The position numbers were made by a program, and so were the translations under genes. Below the pieces are notes generated by a model that worked only from the letters and a program-made list of their open reading frames with translations, had not been told where the DNA came from and ran no database searches. A stretch of DNA of 64,000 nt, from positions 53,347-117,346 of IMG/VR virus record IMGVR_UViG_3300036985_003303; one strand, 5' to 3'. Origin of the DNA: a virus. Shown piece by piece: positions 12,546-64,000 of the stretch; positions within the stretch are counted from its first letter, which is position 1, and each line of letters starts with the position of its first letter.

Positions 12546-13517
12546 ATGCCAAATACATTTTTAAACTATAGAACTTATGATCAGTTATTGGCTGAGATCC
12601 AATCTGATTTTAAAAAATACTATCTGGAAGATTTTATTAATCCTCAAGAGTTTATCAAAGTTGCAAAAAGATGTAACTATGAACTAGGCTTGAAGATTTT
12701 TAAAACAAAAGAGGTGGTGCTTGATATTGAAAAAGGAAGAGCAAAACTTCCTAACAACTTTCAAGTGTTAAATTTTGCATTTATGCTAATGGATCATTTT
12801 ATTATTGAGCCATTAATTTCAGGAACGCATGTTGAAAATGTAAATTTAGGGCCAGTTTATAATCCAGGAAACTGGAATGATGTGAACTTGTGTTCTCCTG
12901 CACTTGCTCCTACAGAACCAGGTTGTGAGCCATGTGCTGTTCCACATCCACATAGTTGCAATGACTGCGGTTCTAAATATGAAAGCTGTTCGTGTAAACC
13001 TATTGGGGATGTCAAGTTAAATTGCAAAGGAGAGTTTGTAGCATTAACCCAACACTTTAAGTTTCATACTAGAAGATGGACAACAATGCGTTCTATAAGA
13101 ATGATAAATAGTCCTGATGTTGTAGATCCCGATTGTCCAAACAAAACATGGCAAGCCCGTGATACGGCTTATATCAAAGATGGATTTATTTACACTTCTT
13201 TTAAAACAGGAAAGCTGTATGTAAATTACCAAGGAATGATGGAAGATGATGATGGTAACTTACTAGTCCCTGATCATGATATGCTAAATGAGTTTTATGA
13301 GTATGCAATTAAACAACGCGTACTTGAGAATATGATTATGAATGGTGAAGCTGTAAATGGAAGCCAAATTCAAATCATAGAGTCAAGATTAAAAGCTGCA
13401 AGAAACAATGCATATAGTTTGGTAAATACACCTAACTTTAGTGAACTAAGACGCATCTGGGAAGTAAACAGAAAAGCACAGTATCACAATTTTTATACAA
13501 TGTTTAGATCCTACTAG
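12546..13517 (+). CDS. Tail-tube-like (P22 gp4-type) ring protein
   Basis: A 323-residue protein. The start, TFLNYRTYDQLLAEIQSDFKKYYLEDFINPQEFIKVAKRCNYELG, followed by IFKTKEVVLDIEKGRAKLPNNFQ, is the pattern of tail tubular/adaptor proteins: an N-terminal helical bundle, then a strand with the LPxNF motif. A cysteine-rich loop (about residues 117-157, CEPCAVPHPHSCNDCGSKYESCSC) is inserted before a beta-rich part and a helical C-terminus. The gene directly precedes the muzzle gene, the same order as tail-tube then tail-needle/stabilisation genes in podoviruses. The stop is TAG. The assignment is from order and sequence pattern, not from a search. Confidence 0.65.
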   Translation: MPNTFLNYRTYDQLLAEIQSDFKKYYLEDFINPQEFIKVAKRCNYELGLKIFKTKEVVLDIEKGRAKLPNNFQVLNFAFMLMDHFIIEPLISGTHVENVNLGPVYNPGNWNDVNLCSPALAPTEPGCEPCAVPHPHSCNDCGSKYESCSCKPIGDVKLNCKGEFVALTQHFKFHTRRWTTMRSIRMINSPDVVDPDCPNKTWQARDTAYIKDGFIYTSFKTGKLYVNYQGMMEDDDGNLLVPDHDMLNEFYEYAIKQRVLENMIMNGEAVNGSQIQIIESRLKAARNNAYSLVNTPNFSELRRIWEVNRKAQYHNFYTMFRSY

Positions 13518-13519
13518 TT

Positions 13520-16500
13520 ATGGCAAAGCAAAGAAGTGCAGGTAGTTCTACATTTAAGAGTCAAGGAACATTTGATAAATCGCTTGTAACTGATACAAGT
13601 GATTTTCATTTACCGGAAAACTCATGGACTTATGCAAGAAACGCAATTAATAATACAAGAAAAGGCGACTTAGGTAAATTGAGTACTGAGCCAGCTAATA
13701 ACTTCTGTACCTTTGCTCCATACACAATTATTGGAGCTTTGCACATTGAAGAAGATAGATGGTTAATGTATTCCACAAACAACACTGATTCTGAAATAGG
13801 AATTTTTAAAGAAGGTAATTGTTCTTATAGCACATTAGTAAATGATAAGTGTTTAAATTTTAACACAGATAACCTAATTAAAGGTATTACTAGAGCAACA
13901 TTTGATTGTTCATTTAATGCTTACTGGGATGATGGGCGCAATGTATCAAGAGTATTGGATATTGGAGATGTTCCTTGGATACAAGTTTGTACAACAGTAA
14001 ATGGATGTACAACATGTGTTGATACCACCGATTTAGATTGTGATAAAATAAGACTAGAATCTTTCATAGAAACGCCTTGTATAAACATAGTGAGGGGAAA
14101 AGGTGTTGCAAGTATTTTAAATGGCTCATATCAAGCGCAAGTAGCTTATTTAGTAGATGACCAAAGAGTAACTGATTACTTTATTTCATCAAATGCTTTA
14201 TCTCTTTTTGATCATACAAATGTTAATAGCTCAATAGACATCTATGTATCTAATCTAGACACAGCCTTTGACAGTTATGAGTTAGTTTTAATTTCAACCA
14301 TAAATGAAAAAACAGTAGCTAGAAAGATTGGTATCTATAGCACTAGACAAAATGTTGTTTCTATAGATTACATTGATATTACACTACCTGTAGTACCATT
14401 AGCTGATCTAACAATAATAACACCAATTCCAGATAAGTCTGAGGCAATATTTAGTGTTGGTCAATATGCATTAAGAGTTGGCCCAACAACAAAGTTTGAT
14501 TTTAACTATCAACCATTAGCAAATCAAATTGGTACATTTTGGCAATGTGTAGAATACAAAAATGAATACTACAAAAATGGTGGAACCAATATAGGTTATA
14601 TGCGCGATGAAGTATATGGCTTTTTTATACGCTGGGTTTACAATACAGGAGATAAATCAAACAGTTATCATATTCCTGGTCGCGGAGCTGGTCAATTCTA
14701 TTTGACAAATGATGCAGGTGGAAATGCAGGAGCTATATCAGAAATTGATCCTTGTCCAACTACAATAAATGATATTGAAACTCCTGATTACACACCCAGA
14801 GTGTTTGAAGTTTATAATACTGCAAGTTTAATATCAACTCCAAATACAACTTTACCTGATGGTGGACTTTTAGTTGCTGAAGGACAAATGGGTTATTGGG
14901 AATCAATTGAATTGTATGATGACAAACATCCAGAAATTTGGAACTCTTTTGTACCAGGAAGACCTGATTGGAATTTATGTGGCCAACCAATACGTCACCA
15001 TAAGTTTCCAGAAAATGTAATTACATCTGGTGGAGCAACTAACACACTTACTAATCATTACAAAGATGGCGGAGATAAAATTAGAATTATGGGTGTTAGA
15101 TTTGATAACATTCAACCACCAAAAGATAACAATGGAAATTTAATAACAAATATTGTTGGGTATGAAATATTAAGAGGAAATAGAACTGGTGCAAAAACAG
15201 TTTTATATAAAGGGCTTATCAATAATATGTTTGAATATGATGCTCCTAATTTGGTAACAAATAGAAAAGCACTGTATGCAAATTACCCATTTAATGATTT
15301 AAGACCGGATCCATTTATTTCTTCAAATACATTGCCAACTAGTTATGAACCACTTCAAGGTGGATTAATAAACTATACTCCTAATGCGGATTACAGTAAA
15401 AAACATTTTACTTTCCATTCACCAGATACAATGTTTGCAAGACCATTTTTGGTTGATGATGAAGTAAAAATATATGGTGCTTCTTGGGGGGATAGTCAAG
15501 GTTCTTATGTAGAACCTAAAAACCATCCGCGTCACAAATTCATTACTGATATATCTTTTATTACTGGAATTGTAGTTGGATTTGGATATGCTATTAGTAA
15601 AATGCTTGGTTCTAGAGATGTTAAGTATAGAGGTTATCAAATTGACAGTGATTCAATTTTTGCAGGTTCGTCAACATCTACAGGAAATATTATTCCTGCG
15701 GGTGCAGCGGTAATTGGAGCACAGGCAAATGCGATTAATGTCATGGGTATATATGGGATGTTGGATGCAATGACTGGACAAAACTCAGGTATTGCGTCAG
15801 CAACTGGACTTTCCCAAGGTACGCTGGTGTCAACATCAAAAGTAGCTGCGCAAGTACCAAGTTCAGGGGTTACTTCAGGTTATATAGAAGTAAATTATAA
15901 AGATCAAGATGCCTCACCTGGTATATTAAGAGCAGCGTTGGCATTAATGGGTAATCCAATGTTTTTAAGTTATATGGCTGCTGGTGCAGATACAACATAC
16001 AAACTAATTGAATCATTAGGAGCTTGGCAGCAGTTTGCTTTACAATATCAATCAGTATGTAAATATGAAAATTTTGCTGCACCTTATGCAAATAACAGAA
16101 GACGCAGAGTAAATGATGCTAGATATTTAAATCCAGGAGTTCAAGACTACCAAACTAATTATATTGTAAATCATATTTACAGAAATGAAACAGTAATGTT
16201 TGATACACCTGTTGATATTGAAGATATTACAGGTCCAATAGTTGATGTATCAAGACCACCGCTAGTATCAACAATGCCAGCTGGTCGCCACCTTGATAAT
16301 TTTTCAAGAAGGGCATCTTCACATTATGTAGCTTTAAAAACAAGGCTGCGTAATCAATACGGACAGTTACAATCTATAAGACAACTTATGGTTTCTTCAT
16401 GTGTAACACCTATAGCATCAACCAATTCACCAACTTTATTTGGAGGAGATACCTATATTGGAAAATATTCTGAAAAAAATACTTTGTTTTATTTTCAACA

Positions 16501-18427
16501 ATGGTTAGATGGTCAACCTGATGGAGCCATTTTAAATTACAATAAACAGAAAATGTTTGAATGGACTGCATTTTGGATGGATACAGATCCATTTGATTTA
16601 ATGGAGTTTGTTCAAAGTGTTCCTCAAGCACTTCAAGACGCAATTCAAGCTTCAGCAATTTCAACATTCTTTTCATCATTAGTCACTCCAAGTGATAAAC
16701 ATTGTTTTGATAGATTACCTGGAGCCAATGGAGTGTTCTTATTAAAGAGAGCATTTATGTACTTATTTAATTCAGGAGTTCGTGATTTCTTTGTAGAGTC
16801 TGAATTTAATGTAGACATGCGTGATTGGCAGGATACAGATGCTAAAAAACATTATCCTGTGCTTTCTGATTTGAGAACTATGTTTAATTTAAATTTGATT
16901 AAAGCTGATAACTATTATCAAATTGATAGAAGTTTGTCATGGTCATTTATGGCAAGTCAAAAGATTCCATGGGGAGTAATGCAAGGAAGAGATTATAATC
17001 CATTATTATCTGAAACTTGTTATACAAAGTATCCTAGAAGATTGTTATATTCATTGCCACAAACGGCTGCTGCAAATAATATTTCTCTTGCTAAAAAAGA
17101 TCAGTGGCGTGTATTTTTACCAAACAATTATGCTGATTATGAAAGTAATGTAACTTCAGTGAAGTCAATTAATAGAACAGCTGCTTTAATATTGTTTGAG
17201 AATCAAGCACCAGGTATGTTACCAGGAGTTGATGAATTACAAACTACAAAGGCTGCTGATATTACAATTGGAGATGGTAGATTATTTGCAAGACAATTGC
17301 AACAACTTTCCAATTCTGAAAATTCTTATGAGTACGCATCTTGTCAAAGTAGATTGTCTGTACTCAATACGCCAGCTGGTGTGTTTTGGATGAACCTGAA
17401 CCAAGGTAAAATCTTTTGCTATGCGGGTGGATTAAAAGAGATTTCACTTAAAGGAAATAGATTCTGGTTGAACATCTACCTGCCATATAAACTTTTAGAA
17501 GACTTCCCAACATATTCTGTTACAGATAATCCAGTTGCTGGAATTGGATGTCAGACTATTTATGACAATGAGTATAGTTTGGTTTACTTCTGTAAGAAAG
17601 ATTACAGACTAAAGAAAAACCTACCAGTAACAGTAGAATACATGGGAGGTTCTAAATTCTTAATCAATGGAGTCTTTATTGCTAAAACTGGAGATCCTCT
17701 TTACTTTGATGATTGTTCATGGACATTAAGTTATGATCCAAAAATTGAAGAGTTTGTTTCATTCCATGACTGGCATCCGGACTTATCTTTAGGAGCAAAG
17801 AATACGTTCCTTACAACTAATGATAATGGTATTTGGAAACACAATAATATTTGTAGTAAATATTGTAACTACTATGGTGTTGACTATCCGTTTGAGGTTG
17901 AGTTTCAGTTAGACAATAAGTTTGCTGTAGCAACTATGCGTAATGTTGAATACTACATTGAGAGTTATGTGTATGATGAGCGTAACTGTTATGATAGATT
18001 CCATGTATTAGATCATGGATTTGATGAAGCAATAGTTTATAATTCAGAACAAGTATCTGGATTACTTAAACTGCATCTTAATCCAAAAAATGACTTACCC
18101 TTATTGTTGACATTCCCAAATATTCAAACCAATTACATAAACATCTTGTTCTCTAAAGAAGAACAACAGTACAGATTTAATCAATTCTGGGATGTTACAA
18201 ATGACAGAGGTGAATATAGTGGAGCTGAAGAAAGAATTTGGATCACAGAAGATAATGGGTATATTCGCACATTAAATCCCGCAAACTTAAACTATGACAA
18301 GCAAGAGTTTCAAAGAAAAAAATTCAGACACTTCAACAATAGAGTAAGTTTAAGAAGAACTGTAAACAATAATGTAGAAATCTTAGTGAGTTTAGCTGCA
18401 AGTAATCAGCAATTATCTCACAGATAA
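13520..18427 (+). CDS. Large tail (muzzle/tail stabilisation) protein
   Basis: A 1635-residue protein starting two bases after the tail-tube-like gene. The N-terminus (FDKSLVTDTSDFHLPENSWTYARNAIN, then LGKLSTEPANNFC) is the recognisable beginning of the crAss-like protein described as tail stabilisation protein (P22 gp10-like) or muzzle. The bulk is beta-rich, as expected for a propeller-like tail-tip assembly. Residues about 675-800 are different: an Ala/Gly/Ile-rich hydrophobic stretch (ISFITGIVVGFGYAISKML, then GIYGMLDAMTGQNSGIA), followed by LRAALALMGNPMFLSYMAAG near 800-825. This region could line the channel or touch membrane during ejection (inference). The C-terminal 350 residues are Tyr/Phe/Asp-rich. 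The overlapping shorter frames are shadows. Confidence 0.75.
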   Translation: MAKQRSAGSSTFKSQGTFDKSLVTDTSDFHLPENSWTYARNAINNTRKGDLGKLSTEPANNFCTFAPYTIIGALHIEEDRWLMYSTNNTDSEIGIFKEGNCSYSTLVNDKCLNFNTDNLIKGITRATFDCSFNAYWDDGRNVSRVLDIGDVPWIQVCTTVNGCTTCVDTTDLDCDKIRLESFIETPCINIVRGKGVASILNGSYQAQVAYLVDDQRVTDYFISSNALSLFDHTNVNSSIDIYVSNLDTAFDSYELVLISTINEKTVARKIGIYSTRQNVVSIDYIDITLPVVPLADLTIITPIPDKSEAIFSVGQYALRVGPTTKFDFNYQPLANQIGTFWQCVEYKNEYYKNGGTNIGYMRDEVYGFFIRWVYNTGDKSNSYHIPGRGAGQFYLTNDAGGNAGAISEIDPCPTTINDIETPDYTPRVFEVYNTASLISTPNTTLPDGGLLVAEGQMGYWESIELYDDKHPEIWNSFVPGRPDWNLCGQPIRHHKFPENVITSGGATNTLTNHYKDGGDKIRIMGVRFDNIQPPKDNNGNLITNIVGYEILRGNRTGAKTVLYKGLINNMFEYDAPNLVTNRKALYANYPFNDLRPDPFISSNTLPTSYEPLQGGLINYTPNADYSKKHFTFHSPDTMFARPFLVDDEVKIYGASWGDSQGSYVEPKNHPRHKFITDISFITGIVVGFGYAISKMLGSRDVKYRGYQIDSDSIFAGSSTSTGNIIPAGAAVIGAQANAINVMGIYGMLDAMTGQNSGIASATGLSQGTLVSTSKVAAQVPSSGVTSGYIEVNYKDQDASPGILRAALALMGNPMFLSYMAAGADTTYKLIESLGAWQQFALQYQSVCKYENFAAPYANNRRRRVNDARYLNPGVQDYQTNYIVNHIYRNETVMFDTPVDIEDITGPIVDVSRPPLVSTMPAGRHLDNFSRRASSHYVALKTRLRNQYGQLQSIRQLMVSSCVTPIASTNSPTLFGGDTYIGKYSEKNTLFYFQQWLDGQPDGAILNYNKQKMFEWTAFWMDTDPFDLMEFVQSVPQALQDAIQASAISTFFSSLVTPSDKHCFDRLPGANGVFLLKRAFMYLFNSGVRDFFVESEFNVDMRDWQDTDAKKHYPVLSDLRTMFNLNLIKADNYYQIDRSLSWSFMASQKIPWGVMQGRDYNPLLSETCYTKYPRRLLYSLPQTAAANNISLAKKDQWRVFLPNNYADYESNVTSVKSINRTAALILFENQAPGMLPGVDELQTTKAADITIGDGRLFARQLQQLSNSENSYEYASCQSRLSVLNTPAGVFWMNLNQGKIFCYAGGLKEISLKGNRFWLNIYLPYKLLEDFPTYSVTDNPVAGIGCQTIYDNEYSLVYFCKKDYRLKKNLPVTVEYMGGSKFLINGVFIAKTGDPLYFDDCSWTLSYDPKIEEFVSFHDWHPDLSLGAKNTFLTTNDNGIWKHNNICSKYCNYYGVDYPFEVEFQLDNKFAVATMRNVEYYIESYVYDERNCYDRFHVLDHGFDEAIVYNSEQVSGLLKLHLNPKNDLPLLLTFPNIQTNYINILFSKEEQQYRFNQFWDVTNDRGEYSGAEERIWITEDNGYIRTLNPANLNYDKQEFQRKKFRHFNNRVSLRRTVNNNVEILVSLAASNQQLSHR

Positions 18428-60398: not shown

Positions 60399-62186
60399 CT
60401 AAACCATTTTTAGGTATTTGTTTTGTGTCACTTCTACTTTGCATTTTGCTCTTGTTATTGCGGTGTAAAACCATTTTGCTGAATCCCATACAGGCATTAG
60501 CCAGCTTGCATCAATGTAAACATTGTCCCATTCTTGCCCTTGAGCTTTGTGACAAGAGATTGCATACCCATAAGTAGCAATGATCACATCTTTGTTAAAG
60601 AAGTATCTGGTGGGACCATTGCGTGGAGTAAATTGAGTGACAAGAATTTTGTAAACATGATCTGGTACAACTGTAGTTCCATTCTTAATAGATTGAATAA
60701 TCTGTTGACCATGGAGGGAGGCTTCGGTTAAATTGGGAATTAACAGCGTCATGTGGAATGCATGTCTGTACAATAGAGCTGTGAATGATTTTACATCTCC
60801 ATCTTTTCTTCCTTCAATGCAAACTTCAAACTCAGAAACTAACTGTGCGTTGTTGATTGTGTAAATCTCACCATTGGAATAAGGCCCGGAATTGGATACA
60901 GACACAAGGATGTCATTGTTTTGAGCATACTTGTCAATTTCTCTGTCCCTGAACTTATATGCGCGGATTTTTTCATTGTAAACTACGCGTCTTTCATTAG
61001 TAGAAGTCAGTACTACATAGTTTCCATCACTGCTAATGTCTTTAGCAAGAGCTTTGCTGAACTTCTTAACGCTGGTCAAATCGGAATCTTCCGGTTGTTG
61101 GAAGCGTGGCTTCTTGTTAATTCGCATTTCTGTGGCGATTTTAAGCAATGAGCCGTCATATCTTTTGACTTCGGTAAGTTCATACCGGTTATGGTCAAAG
61201 AAGCTCTCAGGGTAACTTTTTTCCCAGTTGAAGATAAATGGGTTTTCTCCTACAGGTTCTAGTTGGAAACTATCTCCCATGAAGATCATTTTACATTTTT
61301 TCTCCGTGGCGTGTTTGATGAGAACTTCAAGTACATACTTGTCAATCATTGAGCATTCATCTACAATGTAAATGCCACGCACTCTAAGTGTTTTATCTAC
61401 AAAGAATGTATTCTTCTTGTCGCCAGCGGCAAATAAAGCAGAATGAATAGTTGAGTAGTCCAACATGGAGTTATCAATCTTTTCCTTTAATCGGTTTACT
61501 GCGGCATTGGTTGGTGCAAGTAGTGTTGCTTTGCATGCGTTGGCTATGTTTTCTGCAATGGTAGTTTTACCACAACCTGAATAACCTGCAAGCAAAAAGA
61601 AGTTGTCATCAGATTGCAAAAACTTGAACACTTTGTTGAGTGCTTGTTTCTGTCCGTCTGTGAAATCTATTGCCACTTTTCTGGCATTGAATAAGTCACT
61701 TATTGTCATGTTTATTTTGTTTAAATAGTTTTTGTAAGCTTCAGCTGCATCAATTTCATTTTTGTATATACCTAAGTATATTAATTTTCCATTGTGGTTG
61801 ATTTTTGATTCATAAGAACTTAATTTTTTATTATAGGATACACCAATGTACTTAGAAGAACCGTATATTTCTTTGGTGGTATTTTCTCTAGTTGTAAGTA
61901 GTTGAAGATTGCAGACTCTATTGTCTGTTTTAATGTTATTTATGTGATCTACTACAATTGAAAATTTACTTGGAGTGTGTTCTAAAAATGCCATTGCAAC
62001 AAGTTGATGTACTTTTAGAGTGATCTTCTTTTTATTTAAAGAAAGACTCACTTTGTAATACCCGCTTTTATGAAGGCTTGGTTTAAACAAGGTTACTTTA
62101 TTAAACCAATTTGAGCGAATGTTTCCTAGCGTGGATGCTTCATATTTTTCAAATTGAGGTATGACTTTCCATATTTCTTCTTCCAT
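60399..62186 (-). CDS. Dda/RecD-like SF1 helicase with in-frame N-terminal HNH-AP2 homing endonuclease
   Basis: A 595-residue fusion. Residues 2-158 are a homing endonuclease: NUMOD4-like EIWKVIPQFEKYEASTLGNI, an HNH core (H60, D80-H81, N89, N93, E101-N102) and an AP2-type segment (SSKYIGVSYNKK to EAYKNYLNKI). Residues 160-595 are a complete SF1B helicase: Walker A G201-YSGCGK-T208, STIHSA, motif II D276-ECSM, GDSFQLEPVGE (304-314), HKAQGQEWDNVYID and YTAITRAK. M160 (ATG at 61709), in the A-rich context AAACAAAATAAACATG, looks like the original helicase start, so the nuclease gene appears joined upstream. The start at 62186 fits the usual nuclease beginning (MEEEIW); ATG 62231 or GTG 62240 would extend it by 15 or 18 residues. 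The helicase should act in replication or recombination; whether one fused or two separate products are made is unknown. Confidence 0.85.
   Translation of the reverse strand: MEEEIWKVIPQFEKYEASTLGNIRSNWFNKVTLFKPSLHKSGYYKVSLSLNKKKITLKVHQLVAMAFLEHTPSKFSIVVDHINNIKTDNRVCNLQLLTTRENTTKEIYGSSKYIGVSYNKKLSSYESKINHNGKLIYLGIYKNEIDAAEAYKNYLNKINMTISDLFNARKVAIDFTDGQKQALNKVFKFLQSDDNFFLLAGYSGCGKTTIAENIANACKATLLAPTNAAVNRLKEKIDNSMLDYSTIHSALFAAGDKKNTFFVDKTLRVRGIYIVDECSMIDKYVLEVLIKHATEKKCKMIFMGDSFQLEPVGENPFIFNWEKSYPESFFDHNRYELTEVKRYDGSLLKIATEMRINKKPRFQQPEDSDLTSVKKFSKALAKDISSDGNYVVLTSTNERRVVYNEKIRAYKFRDREIDKYAQNNDILVSVSNSGPYSNGEIYTINNAQLVSEFEVCIEGRKDGDVKSFTALLYRHAFHMTLLIPNLTEASLHGQQIIQSIKNGTTVVPDHVYKILVTQFTPRNGPTRYFFNKDVIIATYGYAISCHKAQGQEWDNVYIDASWLMPVWDSAKWFYTAITRAKCKVEVTQNKYLKMV
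61710..62186 (-). mobile_element. HNH-AP2 homing endonuclease domain joined to the helicase gene
   Basis: This segment encodes residues 1-159 of the fusion described above: NUMOD4-like, HNH and AP2-type parts, the standard make-up of a free-standing phage homing endonuclease. No intron boundary or intein splice residue is visible, and the helicase motifs downstream are uninterrupted. It is best described as a homing gene inserted at the helicase start codon and read in frame with it. Confidence 0.75.
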
Positions 62187-62257
62187 GGGCTTTGTGATTA
62201 GTAGGTGATGATAGTAACCACACTTTCGCATGGCTACCACATCTACCTTTGGGATTA

Positions 62258-64000
62258 TTACTTGTCAACTACAAAGAACTCTTTGGAGTCTAATTCAAAT
62301 ACAACATAGTCTACATCTTCTATGGTGTTAACTACGGTGCGTTTGTTTTTGTACTTGTCTTCTAAGATTTCAGCTACTGCTTCACGCATGCTGTCTGGAA
62401 TAAGACTCGGAGCTAAATCCACTTTTTGATTAGCATTTTCATCTGTGAACCATGGTATTTCATCTACTGGTTCATCATACTCTTCCATCATATCAAATAG
62501 GTGATCATGGCTTTCATCTGTAGCACCAATCAATCCATCATCAGGATTACCTTTCTCCACAATACCATGCTCCTCTTTGACCATTTCAATTTGCTCTTCA
62601 GACATTGGAATTACGTCATCAAACTCTGGAACACCTGCAGCTTGCAATAATTGAACATCACCTTCTTCAATGTATTCAACTAATTCTTCCAACTCTACAA
62701 GTTCTCCATAGCTTATTGATTCATTGTCTAATTCAGTCCTGATTTCTTCCAATCTTTCTTTCTTAGAATTAACATCATCAAACAAGGATGGTTCTTCTGG
62801 TCTGAATAATGTTTTTTCTTTTACCTGGTTCTGCGCTTGAATAAGATTTTCTACTGATTCCATTTCATCTTTTTCAGATTCTACTGAATGACCTACACAT
62901 GGAGTAATTGTACCTTCAGCTTCAAGTTGATTCCAATCTTCATCTTCTTCAGCATCTAGATCTACTGATGGTATTGAAACCTCTATGTCATTATCTACAC
63001 CATATAACTGATGAGCAAGTTCATCTTCAGTTAATACATCTTCCTTAGCTTCATTAGTGTCTAGAATGATTTCCTCAGACTGGTGCACATCTATATCAAA
63101 ATCAGACCCATTTTGCACCACTTGATTATCAGGTAGTTCTGCTTCTATATCTGCTTTAATAGCATCCCTTTCAATTGCTAATTCAGATAACTCTGCAATC
63201 TGATCAAGTATACTTATCTGATTAGGATCAACAAACTCTGACTCAGTTACAATTGGTGTTGCAACATATAATGGAGCTGGTGTACTAGTAGGAGCAAACT
63301 TATTTACTTCAGAAATAAACATGTGTAGTATCCTCTGGTCTTCCATCCAAGTTTTTGGATGTGAATGTTGCAATGCTGTAGTTACATAGTTATAAAAAGC
63401 CCATAAGCTATCTGCATTAGAAAATACATGCACTGGTCTTTTCATCTGGTCTCTGATCATACTAGCTTGTTCTGTAGTAAGAATCTGATACTCTGCAAAT
63501 AAGATCCCAAGCATCTGAGCTTGTTTCCTCTTATTCATAGTAATTAACTCCATACTAGCTTTATCAGAACACAACTGATTATAATACATGTGAGCATTAG
63601 CTACTTGTTCATCAATTGTATCTTGTGTCTCCGTGTCTGCAGTTCCTGTATGCTTTCTAGACCAGCTTCCCATATCACCGCAAACCATTACAGTTCCAGT
63701 TTTATTTACATAGGCACCAACACCACACTTAAATCTTACTTGTTTGTTATAACTGTTTGTCCAAGCAAACATCATGGATAATTCAGGGTCTGAATTATAA
63801 TTTAATTTATAAATACCTTGAGCAATCTGACCATCTGCAGTAGCTCTGTATTCTTCTTCTACAATAGTAAACCCAGCATTAGTTAGTGCAAGGGTTGACA
63901 TATCAATAACTGACTCATGGGAGATAACTGTATAAGTTTCTCCATGAGCTGGAAGAGCTACACTTATTAAATGTGCTTTTCCATACTCTTGAATTTTCTT
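62258..64000 (-). CDS. DUF932-like phage protein with acidic C-terminal region (5' end outside window)
   Basis: The frame is open to the right edge, giving the last 580 residues; the ATG at 63901 is internal, because the 33 codons before it (HLISVALPAHGETYTVISHE) continue the same pattern. Residues 1-235 resemble DUF932-type phage/plasmid proteins: LTNAGFTIVEEEYRA, FAWTNSYNKQVRFKCGVGAY, MVCGDMGSWSRKHTG, then a helical part with NADSLWAFYNYVTTALQ and HPKTWMEDQ. Residues about 250-520 are strongly acidic and probably extended (AEEDEDWNQLEAE, LVELEELVEYIEEGD). The last 60 residues are more folded (MREAVAEILEDKYKNK, VDYVVFELDSKEFFVV). Proteins of this kind are conserved in crAss-like early regions (from memory); function is not established. 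The stop is 17 bases before the helicase frame. Confidence 0.7.
   Translation of the reverse strand, partial: KKIQEYGKAHLISVALPAHGETYTVISHESVIDMSTLALTNAGFTIVEEEYRATADGQIAQGIYKLNYNSDPELSMMFAWTNSYNKQVRFKCGVGAYVNKTGTVMVCGDMGSWSRKHTGTADTETQDTIDEQVANAHMYYNQLCSDKASMELITMNKRKQAQMLGILFAEYQILTTEQASMIRDQMKRPVHVFSNADSLWAFYNYVTTALQHSHPKTWMEDQRILHMFISEVNKFAPTSTPAPLYVATPIVTESEFVDPNQISILDQIAELSELAIERDAIKADIEAELPDNQVVQNGSDFDIDVHQSEEIILDTNEAKEDVLTEDELAHQLYGVDNDIEVSIPSVDLDAEEDEDWNQLEAEGTITPCVGHSVESEKDEMESVENLIQAQNQVKEKTLFRPEEPSLFDDVNSKKERLEEIRTELDNESISYGELVELEELVEYIEEGDVQLLQAAGVPEFDDVIPMSEEQIEMVKEEHGIVEKGNPDDGLIGATDESHDHLFDMMEEYDEPVDEIPWFTDENANQKVDLAPSLIPDSMREAVAEILEDKYKNKRTVVNTIEDVDYVVFELDSKEFFVVDK

Follow-up and report, generated by a model that had tools for sequence, protein, structure and literature searches.

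How does a homing endonuclease gene (HEG) come to share one reading frame with a helicase, and what would a phage make from such a frame? HEGs are known in introns, in inteins, and between genes, and a search of open-access literature text found no described case, outside inteins, of one fused in frame to the gene that it occupies. The window (the whole stretch of DNA analyzed here, 64,000 nucleotides) covers the final 64 kb of a virus record 117,346 bases long, and ORF analysis reveals in it a single 595-codon frame on the minus strand, running from ATG 62186 to a stop at 60399. The same frame is open further upstream, to GTG 62240 (613 aa); this extension is not conserved in a second crAss-like IMG/VR contig (L001), which makes ATG 62186 the likely start. 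In 613-aa numbering, the Pfam domains are NUMOD4 at 22–67 (E = 4.5e-10; 40.0 bits vs a curated cut-off of 23.4), HNH_3 at 77–120 (E = 1.3e-7; 31.5 bits vs 24.8), AP2 at 129–177 (E = 1.3e-5; model positions 1–52 of 54, at 25.8 bits, below the curated cut-off of 33.3), AAA_30 at 194–334 (E = 1.3e-18), and UvrD_C_2 at 557–602 (E = 2.9e-13). PHROGs likewise labels the frame as HNH endonuclease plus Dda-like helicase. The frame thus divides into a NUMOD4-HNH-AP2 nuclease part (61710–62186, minus strand, 159 codons without a stop) and a Dda-like SF1B helicase part (60399–61709, minus strand, 436 aa, starting from an ATG of its own at 61709). The in-frame fusion noted in a preliminary description of this DNA is borne out by this frame, by its Pfam and PHROGs domains, and by its recurrence in L001.

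The phage itself is crAss-like (Crassvirales), judging from the presence of 2 protein families: the crAss tail ring (PF24228, E = 1e-15, at 12546–13517) and the muzzle (PF25731, E = 4.8e-24, at 13520–18427).

Among solved structures, the closest to the nuclease part in sequence is I-HmuI (1u3e, E = 7.9e-7), which is also the best Foldseek match (E = 4.8e-4), the HNH core being a low-confidence AlphaFold2 model; the Foldseek matches ranked next include AP2 structures (E = 0.02–0.05). The putative HNH residues are D80, H81, N93, and N102 (595-aa numbering), i.e. a DH pair followed by N at +12 and +21. All 4 positions are invariant in 13 aligned sequences, and their putative roles follow work on I-HmuI. 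The 2 nucleases share the sequence family and an identical D-H...N...N spacing, but I-HmuI sits in a group I intron, whereas the window nuclease has no intron, ends in AP2, and is fused to a helicase.

The helicase part matches PHROG 325 (Dda-like helicase, E = 4.4e-69) and carries the conserved motifs GYSGCGKTT, VDECSM, GDSFQLEP, and YTAITRAK (Walker A/B and C-terminal helicase motifs). The T4 Dda helicase (3upu), which has no nuclease domain, ranks among its best solved relatives in profile searches and first in fold comparison, with Foldseek matching the helicase part of the AlphaFold2 model of the fusion to Dda; that comparison informs the helicase part only, the N-terminal nuclease part being below pLDDT 50. 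In the same model, the last AP2 helix (144–159) lies right at the junction, and about 17 residues of the helicase N-terminus, between the junction and the first core helix at 177, could serve as a linker. Since Dda-like SF1B enzymes are accessory helicases and not replicative ones of the DnaB type, the earlier label "replicative helicase" does not apply. In the genome collection, the helicase had only remote counterparts, at about 31% identity.

The preliminary description proposed a comparison with helicase genes of relatives lacking the nuclease, and this comparison reveals HEG-less relatives whose helicases begin at the ATG matching window 61709. Specifically, the site is empty in L007, L002, L008, L009, and L010, and occupied in the window and L001. 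In L007, a near twin, the nuclease is absent, the helicase is 98% (aa) and 95% (nt) identical to that of the window, and its ATG lies directly after a hairpin and a short leader. For L006, just 28 nt of sequence precede the helicase, with no in-frame extension in them. The relatives with an empty site exclude an ancient domain common to all, one of 2 circumstances named at the outset as able to undo the observation.

The other was a sequencing error, and we also considered its wider form, i.e. that a sequencing or assembly error removed the stop between 2 ordinary genes. The contig does carry an assembly branch near its end (63034/63035), though 0.8 kb from the insertion, but L001 is an independent contig with the same stop-free junction despite about 20% divergence (nuclease 80% and helicase 76% identical in amino acids). 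Because the junction recurs at this distance, error and chance are both excluded as its source, and we regard an artifact as scarcely credible; a mobile HNH nuclease is indeed joined in frame to a helicase, and this arrangement is conserved. Only two fused copies were found: a junction pattern scan of IMG/VR yielded only L001, and in a tblastn search of 50,697 phages, 80% query coverage in one place was reached only by the two-gene arrangement of phage U1G (two records). Other NUMOD4 matches were found neither in the window's own record nor in the HEG-less records searched.

Alignment with these relatives defines the insert as a short leader followed by the stopless nuclease ORF, whose last codon directly precedes the helicase ATG. 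This leader (62187–62204, minus strand) is shared in part with L001 (CACAAAGC), is unlike the empty-site leader, and, from the alignment of the window, L007, and L001, apparently moves with the nuclease. At the other end, in the junction (61707–61729, minus strand), the last nuclease codons (NYLNKIN) make up a predicted A-rich translation-initiation region, ACTATTTAAACAAAATAAAC, which abuts the helicase ATG at 61709–61707. As first described, the nuclease is joined exactly at the helicase start with the ATG and A-rich leader retained, and the alignment and leader scoring agree with this. A hairpin separates the insertion site from the DUF932-like upstream gene (62203–62247, minus strand; GTAGCC...GGTTACTATCATC), with z from −5.4 to −7.4 in the window, L001, L007, L008, and L009; it is present with or without the nuclease, HEG-less relatives included, and has small covariation support. 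Terminator-like hairpins also occur at the corresponding place in L004 and L049.

The composition of the insert bears on whether an intron or intein carries the nuclease and was simply missed, an idea that the intron-encoded I-HmuI brings to mind. We consider it very improbable: the insert holds merely the nuclease ORF and a short leader, the region has no Rfam match to group I or II introns, no intein family is among the Pfam matches listed, and the helicase is complete downstream, with no upstream part to which it could be spliced.

Both parts of the frame are full length, because free-standing nucleases mostly stop at the AP2 end and the counterpart of ATG 61709 is where the helicases of relatives begin. 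Across 79 nonredundant loci with relatives of the window nuclease, most free-standing copies end no more than about ten residues from the end of AP2, and only the L001 copy runs into another protein, a base rate that applies to about 79 relatives of one nuclease family. For example, the L026 nuclease ends in ...YQKALNKIN-stop, where the window has ...YKNYLNKIN-Met. From these ends and the L026 tail it follows that the nuclease is complete and that exactly its stop is missing. The nuclease has its own start, and the stop is absent in both fused copies.

Comparing the window with L001, we find a dN/dS of 0.17 for the nuclease, across about 0.7 dS, and of 0.08 for the helicase. The sequences thus place the nuclease under purifying selection, and this constraint acted during its fusion, provided that the junction common to both arose once. 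Synonymous divergence is lower in the nuclease (pS 0.454) than in the helicase (pS 0.717; permutation P = 0.0005, two copies), and lower than in every 159-codon block of the helicase. Because of this difference, the nuclease probably spread laterally after the helicases had parted, with the junction carried along or recreated; as helicase synonymous sites are near saturation and two copies are compared, the argument depends on how far the two pS values differ. Identity to L007 along the region revealed no clear coconversion tract around the HEG. On the helicase side, identity is 97% as far as the ATG itself, and upstream of the HEG it is about 78%, with similar dips elsewhere nearby and a contig end that is chimeric or allelic.

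These values also weigh on a neutral accident, in which the stop was lost on landing, the free helicase alone is of use, and the nuclease is heading for decay. Free-standing relatives do have a stop at the corresponding position, and the start signal of the helicase has been kept or improved, as such an accident would have it. However, the nuclease is intact and constrained at the dN/dS given above, the fusion is shared by two phages, and the nuclease is less diverged than the helicase, so we hold this explanation to be improbable. For the same reasons, the wording "recent insertion scar" does not fit: the junction is common to two phages, and their nucleases differ at 45% of synonymous sites under purifying selection.

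What would be translated from the locus depends on the 2 starts. By standard decoding, the nuclease can be produced solely as a fusion, because no stop precedes the helicase, and this fusion probably has enzymatic activity, since the nuclease has been constrained while fused. A free helicase of 436 aa is probably also made, by predicted internal initiation at ATG 61709, because this ATG is kept and has a high-scoring A-rich leader supplied by the last 20 nt of the nuclease. Its leader score of 8.14 exceeds those of 704 internal ATGs and lies at the 97th percentile of called starts, using a 20-nt leader matrix built from 77 starts in the window phage and its relatives (mechanically called ORFs of the contig and relatives, HEG-less helicase starts included). 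The L001 helicase leader likewise ranks above 704 internal ATGs and at the 97th percentile, and in both fused copies local structure is weak and the nuclease's own start scores below the helicase leader. The phage's crAss-like identity is in keeping with such signals, as crAss-like phages infect Bacteroidota, which fits A-rich leaders. In Flavobacterium, where Shine–Dalgarno sequences are naturally lacking, A at −3, −6, −12, and −13 promotes initiation, as has been described for Bacteroidetes (PMC6847099). All 4 positions are A in both fused leaders, compared with one in the empty-site leader of L007.

The A-rich tail was probably a fortunate pre-adaptation and did not evolve for the window helicase, because A-richness belongs to the nuclease family in general: A makes up 56% of its tails, vs 43% of the body and 45% of other genes' tails. 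We also asked whether the family habitually abuts the next start codon and rejected this, as it barely differs from other genes of the same contigs (start within 20 nt of the stop in 47% of HEGs vs 42% of other genes; overlaps in 22% vs 22%).

The 2 readings originally set against each other, a helicase-targeted nuclease and internal initiation that makes the helicase alone beside a recent scar, are therefore not exclusive and each probably holds in part: the lack of a stop leaves the fusion as the sole form of the nuclease, internal initiation is strongly predicted, and the "recent" scar is the part that lacks support. Whether the fusion is itself the selected product is a separate matter. 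The helicase could bring the nuclease to replicating or recombining DNA, resulting in better homing or in attack on the DNA of competing phages, and a free nuclease is indeed impossible to make, its sequence is constrained while fused, and one substitution in the last nuclease codons (e.g. AAA to TAA) would restore a stop that neither fused copy has. On the other hand, the fusion is found in only 2 of the helicase relatives and is missing from the near twin, the leader is ideal for the helicase alone, and a joined nuclease could simply be tolerated. As such, we see it as unlikely that the HEG was selected to work as a helicase fusion carried to replicating DNA, with the helicase alone also made from the built-in start.

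We favor instead, as the probable explanation, a mobile HNH homing gene that is seated on the helicase start codon and yields both a nuclease-helicase and a free helicase. An I-HmuI-like catalytic part with an AP2 DNA-binding end would occupy the start of a Dda-like helicase gene, joined to its ATG without a stop. Initiation at ATG 62186 would give the 595-aa nuclease-helicase, and initiation within the frame at ATG 61709 the normal 436-aa helicase, with the A-rich end of the nuclease gene as leader. During mixed infection, a competing phage with an empty site would be cut by the nuclease in its helicase-start region, and recombination would then copy the nuclease into the cut phage and recreate the same junction. 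If so, conserved stop-free joining at a start codon would be a further way for such elements to reside harmlessly in a constrained region, the tail of the element replacing the displaced leader, and it suggests that phages with merely A-rich start signals tolerate these insertions easily. The window fusion also provides a ready natural nuclease-helicase chimera for testing.

A similar insertion is present in Escherichia phage U1G (Schitoviridae), where an HNH-AP2-like gene (YP_010659802.1) lies at the start of a Dda-like helicase, and the U1G relative UE-S5a is without this gene. As in the window, an HNH and AP2-like nuclease sits at a Dda-like helicase start, its 3′ end holds the helicase leader, and relatives lack the nuclease. 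By contrast, the U1G nuclease has its own stop, is out of frame, and overlaps the helicase by 11 nt; the phage is unrelated to crAss-like phages, and its leader is of the Shine–Dalgarno type (ACTGGAG). Going by their sequences, HNH-AP2 nucleases thus appear at the same kind of helicase start in two unrelated phages, with the one-frame fusion only in the crAss-like phages. At this U1G locus (L039, NC_070872.1 22280–24077), the helicase is annotated as starting with TTG.

Free-standing HEGs of T4 (seg, mob) are also wedged beside conserved genes: gene 32 promoters lie within segG, and mobE overlaps the preceding gene at UAAUGA (PMC2988022). These are separate ORFs, whereas the window nuclease has no stop and embeds a signal for translation start instead of a promoter. 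The mobE, mobA, and seg43 insertions split the host genes nrdA, gene 60, and gene 43 (PMC2988022), and share with the window an HEG inside a functional gene region that is tolerated by accommodation at the protein level. There, however, the host protein is split in two, while the window helicase is whole and extended at its N-terminus.

The gene upstream of the insertion (62258–64000, minus strand) has a weak DUF932-like match, with a Pfam score under the cut-off. When the contig start (G000:C1:1-1017) is set against window 62915–64000, its first 120 bases exactly repeat window 62915–63034 and the two diverge thereafter, and the L007 contig stretch examined has one copy of the DUF932-like gene; given both observations, the last ~1 kb of the contig (63035–64000) probably represents either another allele or an assembly branch, the genome being circular. 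Another NUMOD4-HNH gene (L032:2785-3532) lies 13 nt before a DUF932-like gene, which shares 63% identity across 343 aa with the upstream neighbor of the window helicase; this HEG was rejected as a close source of the window nuclease, being only 40% identical. Elsewhere in the window, 28637–56549 holds three adjacent very long genes (3239, 4054, and 2008 aa) of the sort found in crAss-like phages, in which they hold the virion RNA polymerase.
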